Assembly (NCBI GenBank): GCA_002694685.1 | Contig: NZMW01000004.1 | Span: forward strand, 616,632 to 680,631 | Direction: 5' to 3' | Length of the DNA stretch: 64,000 bases | DNA from: Balneola sp. | Lineage (GTDB): Bacteria > Bacteroidota > Rhodothermia > Balneolales > Balneolaceae | Shown here: piece by piece, positions 8,129 through 14,663 of the stretch | Numbering within the stretch: the stretch's first letter is position 1 | How the letters are laid out: each line of letters opens with the position of its first letter | The notes under the pieces: generated by a model | The model's database searches: none | Seen by the model: only the letters and a program-made list of their open reading frames with translations | Told to the model about the DNA's origin: nothing | Program-made: the position numbers and the translations under genes

Positions 8129-8158
8129 TTGTATTTTAAGATAAACTCGTTACTTTTG
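8129..8158 (+). promoter_or_regulatory. Bacteroidota-type promoter of the B12 riboswitch/btuB unit
   Basis: TTG at 8129-8131, a 19-base spacer, and TACTTTTG at 8151-8158 match the Bacteroidota -33/-7 consensus (TTG, then TAnnTTTG). Transcription would start near 8165, a few bases before the first riboswitch stem, which supports the call. A 7-6-7 inverted repeat (AACTTAT-N6-ATAAGTT, 8106-8125) lies just upstream. Confidence 0.65.
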
Positions 8159-8170
8159 TTACGAATTAAT

Positions 8171-8352
8171 GATGGTCTCGGTTTGATTATATCATCAACC
8201 AGAGTTAAAAGGGAATCTCGTGAAATACGAGAGCTGTTCCCGCAACTGTAATCCGAATTCGCGATTTGCGAATGAATGCAGCCTCACCTTTGCCACTGTT
8301 CCTAATGGGACGGGAAGGCGCTGCCCCCGGATAAGCCAGGAGACCTGCCATC
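8171..8352 (+). promoter_or_regulatory. Adenosylcobalamin (B12) riboswitch
   Basis: Closing stem P1 pairs GATGG (8171-8175) with CCATC (8348-8352). The conserved core includes GGGAAT (8211-), CCCGCAACTGTAA near 8239, GGGAAGGCG, and the B12 box GCCAGGAGACCTGCC at 8335-8349. These are the hallmark elements of the cobalamin riboswitch. About 176 nt of leader separates it from the btuB start codon and should hold the expression platform. High adenosylcobalamin is expected to shut off receptor synthesis. Confidence 0.95.
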
Positions 8353-8528
8353 ATTTAACCGACGCGCCTCTTTCGGGTAAAAAGATGTGCAGTTAAGATT
8401 TATGCTTTTAGCACTGAACTATACCTTGGTTTTATTTCATGATTTGCTATTCTGTGGAATGACTGTATTTGGTTCTCAAAAGCTTTACCCGCCTAATCAT
8501 ATTCAAAACCAAAGAAAAGAAACAACAC

Positions 8529-10385
8529 ATGAAGTTCTTATCCACACTATCAGTTATTATTATCCTGGCGGCATCCCAAACAAGTTTTGCGCAGGTAGCA
8601 GACACTTTAAATTTAGGAGAAGTTGTAGTTACTGCATCTAAAACCCCGACTCCGGCCCGCGAAACAACAAAGCCGGTAACCGTTATTGACCGTGAAGAAA
8701 TAGAGAGGCATGCCGGCTCTTCAATTTCAGAATTACTGAACCAGCAAAATGGGATTATCATAAATGGGGCCAATTCAAATCCAGGTAAAGATAAATCGGT
8801 GTATTTAAGGGGGGCATCTACGCAGTTTACTCTTATTCTGATAGATGGCTTTCCGGTCACCGATCCTTCCGGGGAAGGCGGGGCTTTCGATTTAAGGCTC
8901 CTGCCTCTGGAGAGTGTAGAGCGTATCGAAATTGTGAAAGGAAGTATGAGTACCCTTTATGGCTCTGATGCCATAGCTGGAGTGGTTAATATCATCACTA
9001 AAAAAAGTGAGCAAGGATCTTTCAATACAACAGGAAAAATATCTTATGGCTCTTTTAAAACCAATGAGTGGGGTGTAGGGGTGAATGGAAGTTCAGCCTT
9101 GGTAGATTATTCCGTAAGCCTAAGCAGGATACAAACAGATGGAATTTCTGAAGCTGAACCAACCCAGGGAAATATTTTCACTAAGGATGGTTTCGAACGT
9201 AATGCTGTTAACAGTCAGGTTTCGTTGAAACCGCTGGAAGGTTTGACGGTCACTCCGTTTCTGAATTACTCCGAATATGATGGAGATTATGACGGAGGTG
9301 CTTTCTCAGATGCCGATAACCGGTACGAAGCGACTCTCTTGAATACGGGTGCACGCCTGACGTTTAGAAAAGGTGATTTTGAAATTAAAGAGTCGGCTAC
9401 ATTGACTCAAACAGAACGAAAATTTACTGATGCTTTTGGGGTCTTTAACCCTGAAGCGAGTTTGTTCGATTCTGATTTGTATGCCACCTACAACAAATTT
9501 GATAACGTTCGATTTCTTGCTGGTTTTAATATTCAAAATCTCGACTTCCAGCTTGATGGAATTGATGAAGGTTCACAGATCCTCAGTCCATACGCCACCG
9601 TATTCTTGAAATCCGGATTTGGCTTAAATGGAGAGTTGGGTTTGCGTCTCAATAATCACTCAGAATATGGAAGTAACTGGACCTACAATGTGGCTCCGGT
9701 TTATAATGTAAACAGCCAGGTTAAACTACTGGCATCAGTTAGTTCAGGCTTTAAGGCCCCAACACTTAACGAACTGTTTGGACCATTTGGTGCCAATACT
9801 GACCTGAAGCCCCAGCAAAGCCTTACCCTTGACGCCGGTATTGAGTATCGATCTTTGGATGGAAGCTTATCTGCCTCGGTAATTTATTTCCAGCGAACCA
9901 TAGATGATTTGATCTCTTACGACGGAACACTCGGATATATCAACGTGAATGAGCAGAATGATTCTGGAGTGGAACTGTCTGCTTCATACCGTTTCTACCA
10001 AACAACCTTAGGGTTCTTTTATAACTACCTGGATGGTGCTATTACTGAAGGCGGGGAAGAAACGGATAACCTCATTCGTCGACCTGACCATAATTTTGGA
10101 GCTAATATCACACAGCAATTAAGTCCAAAACTATTCTTCAATGTGAGCGGTCAATTTGTAGGGGCAAGAGCGGACCTCTTTTTCAACAATGCCACTTTTG
10201 TTACGGAGGAAGTTGAACTGGATAGTTATGTATTGCTGAATGCAAATGCTCAGTACAAACTGCTTCAGGATCAGCTCACTGTTTTTGTATCACTGGACAA
10301 TTTATTGGACGCAGATTACACCGAAGTTTACGGTTTTAATACTCCCGGTTTTCAATTTAAAGGTGGTGTAAAGTTCAATTTCTAA
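8529..10385 (+). CDS. btuB: TonB-dependent outer-membrane vitamin B12 receptor (BtuB-like)
   Basis: 618 residues from the ATG at 8529. A TTG at 8469 opens the same frame but would put 20 residues before a clean signal peptide (MKFLSTLSVIIILAA to TSFAQ), so I chose 8529. The plug domain is recognisable: LGEVVVTASKTPTP (TonB box region), SISELLNQQNGI, VYLRGASTQFTLILIDG and VERIEIVKGSMSTLYGSDA. About 22 beta-strands follow, ending in the terminal aromatic residue of an outer-membrane barrel (GGVKFNF). The cobalamin riboswitch directly upstream identifies the ligand as a corrinoid. No btuFCD transport genes are adjacent. The gene ends at a strong terminator. Confidence 0.92.
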   Translation: MKFLSTLSVIIILAASQTSFAQVADTLNLGEVVVTASKTPTPARETTKPVTVIDREEIERHAGSSISELLNQQNGIIINGANSNPGKDKSVYLRGASTQFTLILIDGFPVTDPSGEGGAFDLRLLPLESVERIEIVKGSMSTLYGSDAIAGVVNIITKKSEQGSFNTTGKISYGSFKTNEWGVGVNGSSALVDYSVSLSRIQTDGISEAEPTQGNIFTKDGFERNAVNSQVSLKPLEGLTVTPFLNYSEYDGDYDGGAFSDADNRYEATLLNTGARLTFRKGDFEIKESATLTQTERKFTDAFGVFNPEASLFDSDLYATYNKFDNVRFLAGFNIQNLDFQLDGIDEGSQILSPYATVFLKSGFGLNGELGLRLNNHSEYGSNWTYNVAPVYNVNSQVKLLASVSSGFKAPTLNELFGPFGANTDLKPQQSLTLDAGIEYRSLDGSLSASVIYFQRTIDDLISYDGTLGYINVNEQNDSGVELSASYRFYQTTLGFFYNYLDGAITEGGEETDNLIRRPDHNFGANITQQLSPKLFFNVSGQFVGARADLFFNNATFVTEEVELDSYVLLNANAQYKLLQDQLTVFVSLDNLLDADYTEVYGFNTPGFQFKGGVKFNF

Positions 10386-10447: not shown

Positions 10448-11006
10448 GATTGGTTTTGCTATACCCCTCTAGGCATTAGCCCGCAATGGTTTTTACAATG
10501 TCTCTCTAAAATTGTAATTAGAGATATATGTTTTTTAGTAAGGTAAATTACATAAAAGATGTTCCTTATAATTAATAAATTAATTACTAATTAAAGGATA
10601 AAAATATTTATAAAAATCTAGAATAATGGGTTTTTCTGGAATTCCAGATGTGGATAACTATTCAGAGGGAGTCAAATATAAAACCAGAACAAATATGCTC
10701 ATATGTATTTTTATGAATGCTTATAAGCACAAGCTTATTTTCTGTTAATCTAGTATATATGATTATTTATAATAATTAATATAATAATATTGCTTAATCA
10801 TGCATGCTTTCAAATTGTGATTTAACAGATGTGGATAAGTCCTAAATATTGTGGAAAAGTAATTGATTTTTTTCTTGCCCAAACACCTTGTCTCGTCTAT
10901 ATTAATTCGTACTTCTTTAGGAGATAAGGTATCGGGATTACGAATAATATTGTCTCTCATCTACGAAGGTTTCAACACAACATTAATACACTAACGAAGT
11001 ACGCCA
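10448..11006 (+). promoter_or_regulatory. AT-rich leader of nrdJ with DnaA boxes
   Basis: 559 bp without a credible gene. It holds three DnaA-box matches in one orientation: TGTGGATAA at 10649-10657 and 10830-10838, and TGTGGAAAA at 10850-10858 (TTWTNCACA on the minus strand). The first two share the 13-mer CAGATGTGGATAA. A perfect palindrome TCTGGAATTCCAGA (10635-10648) abuts the first box. Very AT-rich tracts lie at 10541-10620 and 10745-10795. The simplest reading is a DnaA-responsive nrdJ control region; a replication origin is the alternative. I could not fix a confident -33/-7 promoter. Confidence 0.5.
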
Positions 11007-14000
11007 ATGAAATTTACTCGCTTCTATACTAAGTCTGAGTGGAAGACTCCATTTGACGCTATCGAATTCGCAACACGCACCTCTGAAATTAAAAACCCCG
11101 ACGGTTCCCAGGTATTCCATATGGAAAATGTGGTTGTTCCTGAAAGCTGGTCGCAGGTATCAACAGATGTAATCGCTCAAAAATATTTCCGTAAGGCGGG
11201 AGTACCGGCGAAATTGAAAAAGGTTAAAGAGAAAGGCGTGCCGAAATGGCTTCAGCGATCTGAAGCTGATGAGAAAGCTTTACAAGAACTTCCGGAAGAA
11301 GAAAGATATACGCATGAGATAGACAGCAAGCAGGTTTTCCATCGTTTGGCGGGATGTTGGACTTACTGGGGCTGGAAACATGACTACTTTGACAGTGAAG
11401 ATGATGCGAAAGTATTTTACAGCGAGCTGGCAAACATGCTTGCCAATCAGATGGCAGCACCAAACAGTCCACAGTGGTTCAATACCGGATTACATTGGGC
11501 ATACGGAATTAATGGCCCGGCACAAGGGCATTATTATGTGGATGGTAAAACAGGCGAATTGAAAAAGTCTGAAGATGCATACACCCATCCACAACCCCAT
11601 GCGTGCTTTATCCAGAGTGTAGATGATGATTTAGTAAATGAAGGCGGTATCATGGATCTTTGGGTTCGTGAAGCTCGCTTGTTTAAATATGGCTCAGGTA
11701 CAGGAAGTAACTTCTCTAAAATCCGTGGATCTGAAGAGCCACTTAGCGGCGGAGGAAGAAGCTCCGGTTTAATGAGCTTCCTGAAAATAGGTGACCGTGC
11801 TGCCGGCGCTATCAAGTCAGGCGGTACAACACGTCGGGCTGCCAAAATGGTAACGCTTGATCTGGATCACCCGGATATTGAAGAGTACATCAACTGGAAA
11901 GTTCGTGAAGAGCAGAAAGTTGCAGCTCTTGTAGCCGGATCTAAAAATGTGCAGAAGCACCTTAAGAAAATTATCAACCTTTGCCATACACCGGTAGAGA
12001 TTGAAGGCCGTACTTTCAACGGAGCTATGAGCCGTGATCCGCTGAAAAACAAAGAACTGGCTAACCAAATCCGTAAAGCTAAAAGAGAGCAAGTACCTCT
12101 TAATTATATCGAGCGTGTAATTCAGCTTGCTGCACAAGGCTTCACTGATTTAGAATTTGATACCTATGATACCGATTGGAATTCTGAAGCGTACTCTACA
12201 GTAAGCGGTCAGAATTCAAATAACTCGGTTCGCGTGCCGAACTCCTTTATGAAAGCAGTGAAGGAAGATAAAGACTGGCACTTATATGGTCGTGTGGAAT
12301 TGGATGATGCCGAAGAAGAAGGGCGTGATCCAAAACCAATGAAAACGATGAAAGCTCGTGAGCTTTGGGATGACATTGCTTATGCAGCTTGGTCTTGCGC
12401 CGATCCGGGAACACAGTATCATGACACCATCAACGAATGGCATACATGCCCCGAAGATGGTCCGATCAATGCAAGTAACCCTTGCTCTGAGTACATGTTC
12501 CTCGACAATACCGCATGTAACCTGGCTTCCCTCAACCTGATGAAATATTTCAAAGGGGATGGCGACTATAAAGAATTCGATATTGAATCGCTGGAATATG
12601 CGTCCCGAATCTGGACAGTAGTACTGGAAATTTCTGTACTCATGGCTCAGTTTCCATCTAAGGAAATTGCAGACCTGTCTTACAAATTCCGTACGCTCGG
12701 TCTTGGATATGCCAACATTGGTGCTGCACTGATGGTACAAGGACTTCCATACGACAGTGAAGAAGGTGCTGCTGTTGCAGGGGCAATTACCGCAACTATG
12801 CACATGACCTCCTATGCAACTTCTGCCGAAATGGCGAAGGAGTTAGGATCGTTTGAAGGTTATGAGCGAAACAAAGAGCATATGCTCAAAGTACTTCGCA
12901 ACCACAAACGTGCAGCTTACAATGCTGACCCTGAAGAGTACGAAGGACTGACCGTGAAGCCGATGGGAATCGACGCTTCTATCTGTCCGGATTATTTAGT
13001 GAAAGCCGCTAAAAAAGCATCTGATAAAGCCGTTAAGCTTGGTAAAAAGCACGGATATCGTAATGCACAGGTGACCGTATTGGCACCGACCGGAACCATT
13101 GGTTTGGTGATGGATTGTGATACAACCGGTGTTGAGCCTGATTTCGCACTAGTGAAATTCAAGAAATTAGCCGGTGGCGGATACTTCAAGATTATTAATC
13201 AAGCCGTCCCTAAAGCGCTTAAGAACCTTGGTTATTCTGCTAAGGAATCTCAGGATATTATCAACTACGCTAAAGGAACCGGTTCTCTCGAAGGTTGTCC
13301 TCATATTAATGCGGATACTCTGGGTGAGAAAGGCTTCACCAAAAAGCAGATTGATGCCGTTAATGAAGCACTGCCTGGAAGTTTTGATATCAAGTTTGCC
13401 TTCAATCAGTGGACGCTCGGTGAAGACTTCTGTAAAGAAGTGCTCGAGATTTCTGATGAGCAACTCAATGACATGAACTTTGACATGCTCCGCTTCCTCG
13501 GATTTAGCCAGGAACAAGTTCAGGATGCCAACGATTATGTTTGTGGTACCATGACGGTTGAAGGTGCTCCGCATCTGAAAGAAGAAGATTATGCCGTATT
13601 TGACTGTGCTAACCGTTGTGGTCGAATCGGAACCCGGTTCATCTCAGCTAAAGGACATATCCGAATGATGGCTGCAGCTCAGCCTTTCCTTTCCGGCGCT
13701 ATTTCAAAAACCATCAACCTGCCAAACGAAGCGACTATCGAAGATATGAAGGACGCTTACATGGATTCCTGGGAGATGATGTTGAAAGCGAATGCGCTGT
13801 ATCGTGACGGATCTAAATTAAGTCAGCCACTGAACTCTATGGCCGATGTGCTTGAAGAGATTGTGGATGAAGATGAAGAAGCTCCTGCCGATGCGGAAAC
13901 CACAATGGCTCAGGATAAAGTCCTTGAAGTAGCAGAGCGAATCATTCATAAATATGTAGCTCGTCGTCAGCGACTTCCATTCCGACGTGAAGGTTATACC

Positions 14001-14663
14001 CAGAAAGTTAAAATTGGCGGACAAAGTGTTTACCTGAGAACAGGGGAATATGAGAACGGTCAGCTTGGTGAGATTTTCATCGATATGCATCGTGAAGGTG
14101 CTGCTTTCCGAAGCTTGCTGAACTGTTTTGCAATTTCCATTTCACTTGGATTGCAGCATGGTGTACCTCTGGAAGAATTTGTGGATGCATTTACATTCAC
14201 CAAGTTTGAGCCAAGCGGTATGGTAAACGGAAACCCACACGTGAAGATGAGTACATCTGTAATTGATTACATCTTCCGTGAACTGGCTGTGACTTACCTC
14301 GGAAGAGAAGACTTAGCTCACGTACCGGCCGATCAGATCGAAACCAGAAACTTACGTCCTACTCAGGATGCGAATCCTGACGTAGACAGCTCTGAGTTTG
14401 AAAGATCAGCTGATGCGGTTGCGAAACAACAACCGGCTCCTAAAAAAGAACCGGCACCTGCGGCTGTAGATACCAGCCAGACAGCGGTTGAAGAGCAACA
14501 AACTCAAGCCGTAAAAAGCGACAGCTACGAAAGTGAGTACGACAAAGCCAAACAAATGGGATACACCGGCGAAGCCTGCCCGGAATGCGGAAGCATGACG
14601 ATGGTTCGTAACGGAACCTGTATGAAGTGTATCACCTGTGGTTCTACTACTGGTTGCTCTTAA
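11007..14663 (+). CDS. nrdJ: Adenosylcobalamin-dependent (class II) ribonucleotide reductase
   Basis: 1218-residue class II reductase converting ribonucleotides to deoxyribonucleotides using B12 to generate the thiyl radical. Visible motifs are [13 protein letters not shown] with an N-terminal redox Cys, the N-x-C-x-E active-site loop in [22 protein letters not shown], and a Gly-rich phosphate loop. A TSCPD-type domain (about residues 1000-1110) follows, then a C-terminal Cys tail ([13 protein letters not shown], ending TTGCS) that re-reduces the active site. Length fits the long COG0209 B12-type enzymes. A Pro/Ala/Gln-rich linker (about 1140-1180) precedes the tail. It follows the riboswitch-controlled B12 receptor, so cofactor import and use are neighbours. 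Its long leader carries DnaA boxes. Confidence 0.97.

Follow-up and report, generated by a model that had tools for sequence, protein, structure and literature searches.

The nrdJ gene (11007-14663, plus strand), which encodes a vitamin B12-dependent (class II) ribonucleotide reductase of 1218 aa, is preceded by a leader with three DnaA boxes, and its transcription is very probably controlled directly by DnaA, the leader being, to judge from its sequence, the nrdJ promoter region. Direct DnaA control of a class II reductase, as put forward in the original prediction, is supported by boxes that are conserved and that keep their position with respect to the promoter, with DnaA binding itself presumed. 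All positions refer to the window, that is, the entire stretch of 64,000 nucleotides analyzed here, which was placed on contig C4 of a host genome of 3.95 Mb in 17 contigs. The reductase was assigned to family NF005736 (2041 bits against a cut-off of 1737); the closest named reductase genes, at 91% identity, come from Gracilimonas mengyeensis and G. amylolytica, which makes Gracilimonas the probable genus of the host, and a profile search of the host genome for PF02867 reductases identified nrdJ alone.

The boxes, all in the same orientation, lie within the 621 bases that separate nrdJ from its upstream neighbor, a B12-receptor-like TonB gene (8469-10385; top-scoring family TIGR01779 with 275 bits, under the cut-off of 599.7). 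The distal box, TGTGGATAA, occupies positions 10649-10657 of the plus strand, and the proximal pair consists of a second TGTGGATAA at 10830-10838 and TGTGGAAAA at 10850-10858, on the same strand and 20 bp apart from start to start. Most of the layout described in the original prediction was recovered: two copies of the 13-base word CAGATGTGGATAA, 181 bp apart, at 10645-10657 and 10826-10838; a perfect 14-base palindrome, TCTGGAATTCCAGA (10635-10648), adjoining the first box, which begins at 10649; and an AT-rich leader, with a GC content of 18-21% around 10500-10650 and 10700-10850. The third box has the orientation described, but the gap after the second box is 11 bases, not 12. Between the distal and proximal boxes extends an AT-rich spacer (10658-10829) the base order of which is not conserved. 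Downstream of the proximal pair, a -35 hexamer, TTGCCC (10875-10880; 9/12 consensus matches, TTG conserved), and a -10 hexamer, TATATT (10898-10903), are predicted on the plus strand, separated by a 17-base spacer. Taken alone, the promoter scan is weak: it scores 7 promoter-like sites in this region, where 4.2 would be expected. The nrdJ leader combines multiple DnaA boxes with a nearby reductase promoter, as a DnaA-regulated reductase promoter of the E. coli nrdAB kind would.

Several other elements were found around the leader. The inverted repeat 3' of the TonB gene (10404-10415/10431-10442) is taken for the terminator of that gene, though it is absent from the terminator-scan output. A cobalamin riboswitch (RF00174, 105.6 bits, 8156-8366) precedes the TonB gene; it is the single match in the window at the Rfam gathering level, and control of nrdJ by a B12 riboswitch was rejected given that the nrdJ leader contains no such match. 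Two segments of window 10904-11006 are complementary and conserved in near relatives: CGTACTTCTTTAGGAG, where the nrdJ transcript is expected to begin, and GAAGTACG, just ahead of the ATG. A structured 5' leader RNA was considered and dropped: the alignment fold of 14 leaders gave 4 pairs and zero compensatory changes.

Conservation within the order was assessed in 50 nrdJ leaders, each from a different genome. Of 57 relatives, 55 have nrdJ, and those of the 55 outside the leader set are G011, G017, G023, G044, and G054. A strict box was defined as TGTGGATAA or TGTGGAAAA on either strand, up to 450 bp upstream. As the original prediction implied, the boxes are conserved upstream of nrdJ: at least one strict box is present in 47 of the 50 leaders, at least two in 39, and at least three in 29, for a total of 120. 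In 100 dinucleotide shuffles of the same leaders, the mean total was 0.81 and the maximum 3, with no leader containing two boxes, and the interval from -1500 to -1050 contained no strict box in any of the 47 nrdJ loci long enough to include it. The shuffle test ignores shared descent, which is answered only partly by the reshuffled boxes of other families and by the count per genus (at least one box in 26 of 28 genera and at least two in 22). By family, at least one box was found in 30/30 leaders of f1, 1/1 of f2, 6/8 of f3, 6/7 of f4, and 4/4 of f5. The pattern is that of boxes kept by selection at nrdJ, with 3 of 50 leaders (L062, L075, and L078) lacking a strict box.

The arrangement is most uniform in family f1. 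The exact pair TGTGGATAA-N11-TGTGGAAAA has 31 matches in the 57 genomes. All but one (in G030, contig C7) fall at nrdJ, and these 30 come from 30 of the 34 f1 genomes; the 23 genomes of other families do not contain the pair, and a search with the reversed pattern gave no match. In most f1 leaders, the proximal boxes are located near -170 and -150 from the ATG, and in leaders L044 and L045 a weaker box lies halfway between the two, giving 10-bp steps. The distal station, single or doubled, is common in this family: 24 of 30 leaders have it 161-199 bp upstream of the proximal station. When 28 f1 leaders are aligned, both proximal boxes, a T tract, TTG, and TATATT are kept, but the spacer is not; a -10-like word is present in 27 of these leaders. 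Across the order, the box arrangement is not rigid: f3 leaders have their boxes on the opposite strand, with two stations 143-177 bp apart in 5 of 8, and in families f3-f5 many leaders have one box or have boxes on the other strand. The palindrome occurs in 1 of 50 leaders and was discarded as an operator; the 13-base word CAGATGTGGATAA occurs in 4 of 50, and twice only in the host genome, so that both are local accidents around conserved 9-base boxes.

The host genome encodes one DnaA, the C-terminal part of which shows GGRDHSTV, the signature that touches the DnaA box. If the word is the DnaA site of this group, it is expected in front of dnaA itself, and indeed all 30 dnaA leaders (one per genome) contain at least two boxes, with a pair 97-99 bp apart in 29 of the 30. 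Control of nrdJ by another protein that reads TGTGGATAA-like DNA would fit the 11-bp gap, which is unlike the E. coli double box; we consider it very unlikely given that the word is kept in every one of these dnaA leaders, recurs in the box cluster at the skew switch described below, and equals the E. coli DnaA box TTATCCACA in the table of PMC11317965.

The word as such is not enriched. With up to one mismatch, the window contains 20 sites against 19.08 expected, and genome-wide TGTGGATAA has 42 exact occurrences compared with 38 for the reversed word. The signal is in the clustering and place of the boxes, not in word frequency: two exact boxes less than 200 bp apart are found at three places in the host genome, namely in front of nrdJ, in front of dnaA, and behind glmS. 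Among 437 sampled upstream regions of host ORFs (450 bp each, ORFs of at least 200 aa with an ATG start, from 40 sampled 20-kb stretches, window excluded), 4 contain at least one strict box and 1, at dnaA, contains two. The glmS-side cluster consists of two exact DnaA boxes just after the gene in the host (C4:211642-211744) and three in congener G001 (C2:609235-609338); in the host genome, a skew switch is not in evidence there, and these boxes could be a titration or DnaA-recycling site.

Beyond the order, 17 of the 18 genomes from other families of the class that have a reductase match with an E value of 1e-100 or better were analyzed (G094, at a contig start, was omitted). Two of these reductases were scanned as partial sequences, and their best match was NF005122, another B12-dependent subfamily. 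The 17 leaders, of up to 600 bp, contain 21 boxes, all in gene orientation, against a shuffle mean of 0.15 and maximum of 2. The gene starts of these leaders were assigned automatically, and some of them probably lie too far upstream. At least one box is present in 12 of the 17 and none in 5 (up to 600 bp); at least two are present in 9 within 600 bp and in 8 within 450 bp. Same-strand pairs in nine of these leaders are 119-154 bp apart.

A further survey covered 79 of 80 leaders of named reductase loci (L252 is without a gene start), which were assigned to groups by name and identity and overlap the leader set of the order, so they are not independent of it. Strict boxes were detected in 27 of 28 Balneolales-like leaders and in none of 33 Ignavibacteria-side leaders; at 25% GC, the shuffle mean of the latter is 0.46, so zero boxes is no surprise there. 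Among the remaining named loci, 5 of 18 leaders have boxes, one each, all in Kiloniella and Microvirga. The position of this single alphaproteobacterial box is near-constant: -248 in Kiloniella (L291 and L303) and -348 to -350 in Microvirga (L299, L304, and L305).

The boxes might be mainly a DnaA titration or recycling site, similar to datA or DARS, with little effect on nrdJ transcription, as could be argued from the two stations of strong boxes and from the additional cluster of two or three boxes that follows glmS in two congeners. The proximal pair, however, is fixed relative to the -35 and -10 elements in f1, and other families of the class have boxes in front of a class II reductase that belongs to another subfamily. 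This implicates the gene and not a chromosome site, and we regard a mainly titrating or recycling role as unlikely.

The original prediction had also allowed that the region is a replication origin not next to dnaA. That the nrdJ leader is a chromosomal origin, with the AT-rich spacer as its unwinding element, now seems extremely improbable. The leader does contain three boxes in AT-rich DNA, as an oriC would, which is insufficient alone, and dnaA is on another contig. Skew, sampled over roughly 10-20% of each genome and not as full profiles, shows no negative-to-positive switch at nrdJ. On contig C4, it is at least 0.04 in 14 of 17 sampled 20-kb stretches; the remaining three samples are within 0.016 of zero and at least 250 kb from nrdJ, and the three parts of the window itself are all positive. 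The nrdJ contig of congener G001 is negative in 8 of 8 samples. In two single-contig genomes, the switch is away from nrdJ: between 240 and 440 kb in G042, where nrdJ lies 32 kb before the end of the record, and near 1.0 Mb in G068, where nrdJ is at 3.34 Mb. Around nrdJ, the skew of G068 is weak and mixed, so this genome speaks less clearly against an origin. In G042, the sign is wrong in one sample further on, at 2.42 Mb.

The switch of the host genome is on contig C10 at about 147 kb, beside purM, and coincides with a box cluster: the four samples up to 145 kb have a skew of -0.07 to -0.09, the sample at 145-165 kb has +0.06, and those beyond 165 kb have -0.001 to +0.05. The purM gene is located at 146.4-147.4 kb and the cluster at C10:148014-148364 (L205:3112-3462). 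Boxes beside purM were observed in all five genomes examined (host, G001, G007, G015, and G042); in G042, purM and four boxes are found near 270 kb. An origin at dnaA in the host is not supported either, the sampled skew being positive on both sides of the gene on contig C2. The purM-side cluster is probably the chromosomal origin, away from dnaA.

NrdR, the usual regulator of reductase genes, was considered as an alternative. It was not found in the host genome at an E value of 0.001 (the control was positive in 9 of 14 genomes), and nrdJ was accordingly dropped as an NrdR-controlled reductase, together with NrdR boxes sought in the leader by eye against a consensus. None of 145 genomes of the class has NrdR above the cut-off, with 9 weak partial matches. 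Among the 26 genomes behind the named loci, NrdR is above the cut-off in 5 (Acidobacteriota, Planctomycetota, Kiloniella, and two Microvirga), and in none of 17 Ignavibacteria-side genomes (two with weak partial matches) or of 4 from Balneolales. NrdR above the cut-off and the single DnaA box occur together in the genomes behind L291, L299, and L305. The idea that the boxes are there solely because NrdR is missing was rejected: the 17 Ignavibacteria-side genomes have no NrdR above the cut-off and yet their leaders are box-free, so the boxes are not simply a replacement for NrdR.

The layout suggests how direct DnaA control of nrdJ could work. DnaA would bind the proximal pair, 20 bp apart and centered near -76 and -56 from the expected transcription start (about 10910), and the distal box, which lies about 180 bp upstream of the pair on the far side of the AT-rich DNA. 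If nrdJ behaves like E. coli nrdAB, RNA polymerase would be helped by DnaA-ADP, or by DnaA-ATP at moderate levels, on the strong boxes; at high levels, DnaA-ATP would spread over weaker sites towards the -35 element and shut the promoter off. The boxes, just upstream of -35, fit an activator able to become a repressor, and a switch from activation to repression as at E. coli nrdAB is, on this analogy, most likely at nrdJ too. The two stations may be bridged, or may support cooperative assembly across the AT-rich DNA. The sequences show the boxes, their conservation in a fixed position ahead of a conserved promoter, and, in the samples, no skew switch at nrdJ; we infer that DnaA binds there, where transcription starts, whether it is raised or lowered, and any bridging between the stations. 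In E. coli, an upstream AT-rich element is said, going by the title of Sun et al. 1994, to be involved in cell-cycle regulation of nrd.

For the class as a whole, it is possible, if somewhat doubtful, that DnaA is the main regulator of class II reductase, acting through two stations, mostly 120-200 bp apart with AT-rich DNA between them, that would have been kept despite turnover of box number and orientation and despite differing reductase subfamilies. If so, DnaA availability and nucleotide state would set the dNTP supply. In the order, and probably in much of the class, the reductase promoter keeps DnaA boxes next to -35, and NrdR is not found above the cut-off; a tie of dNTP supply to replication through the nrdJ boxes is probable. 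This makes it a clean natural case in which to ask whether DnaA couples dNTP supply to the initiation of replication outside E. coli as well. In addition, the purM-side locus is a probable origin in a group whose origin appears to be away from dnaA.

Literature searches in an open-licence library (titles and abstract starts) for DnaA with class II reductase, nrdJ, or vitamin B12, and for Gracilimonas DnaA or the Balneolaeota replication origin, returned nothing on the subject. In the available text of PMC8203912, the detailed account of reductase control by DnaA concerns E. coli only; nrdAB is activated by DnaA-ADP or low DnaA-ATP and repressed by high DnaA-ATP, DnaA seems to set the level of expression and not its timing, and Fis and IciA also act in reductase control. 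According to the same text, the reductase genes of B. subtilis and C. crescentus are, like nrdJ, proposed DnaA targets, in their case without detailed analysis. The available part of PMC11317965 reports DnaA bound upstream of both nrdA and nrdD in E. coli and a preference for box pairs 2-3 bp apart. For nrdDG, a class III system and thus another reductase class, DnaA was located upstream by ChIP-seq, and regulation is suggested from binding only (PMC11317965).

The closest parallel is E. coli nrdAB (class Ia), where, as at nrdJ, the main reductase gene has DnaA boxes in its promoter region. The two systems differ in that nrdJ encodes a class II, B12-dependent enzyme, has a distal station about 160-200 bp further up, and belongs to a genome in which NrdR was not found. 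The proximal gap is 11 bp at nrdJ compared with 3 bp at E. coli nrdA (PMC11317965), outside the 2-3 bp of the double box, and nrdJ therefore does not have the E. coli arrangement.
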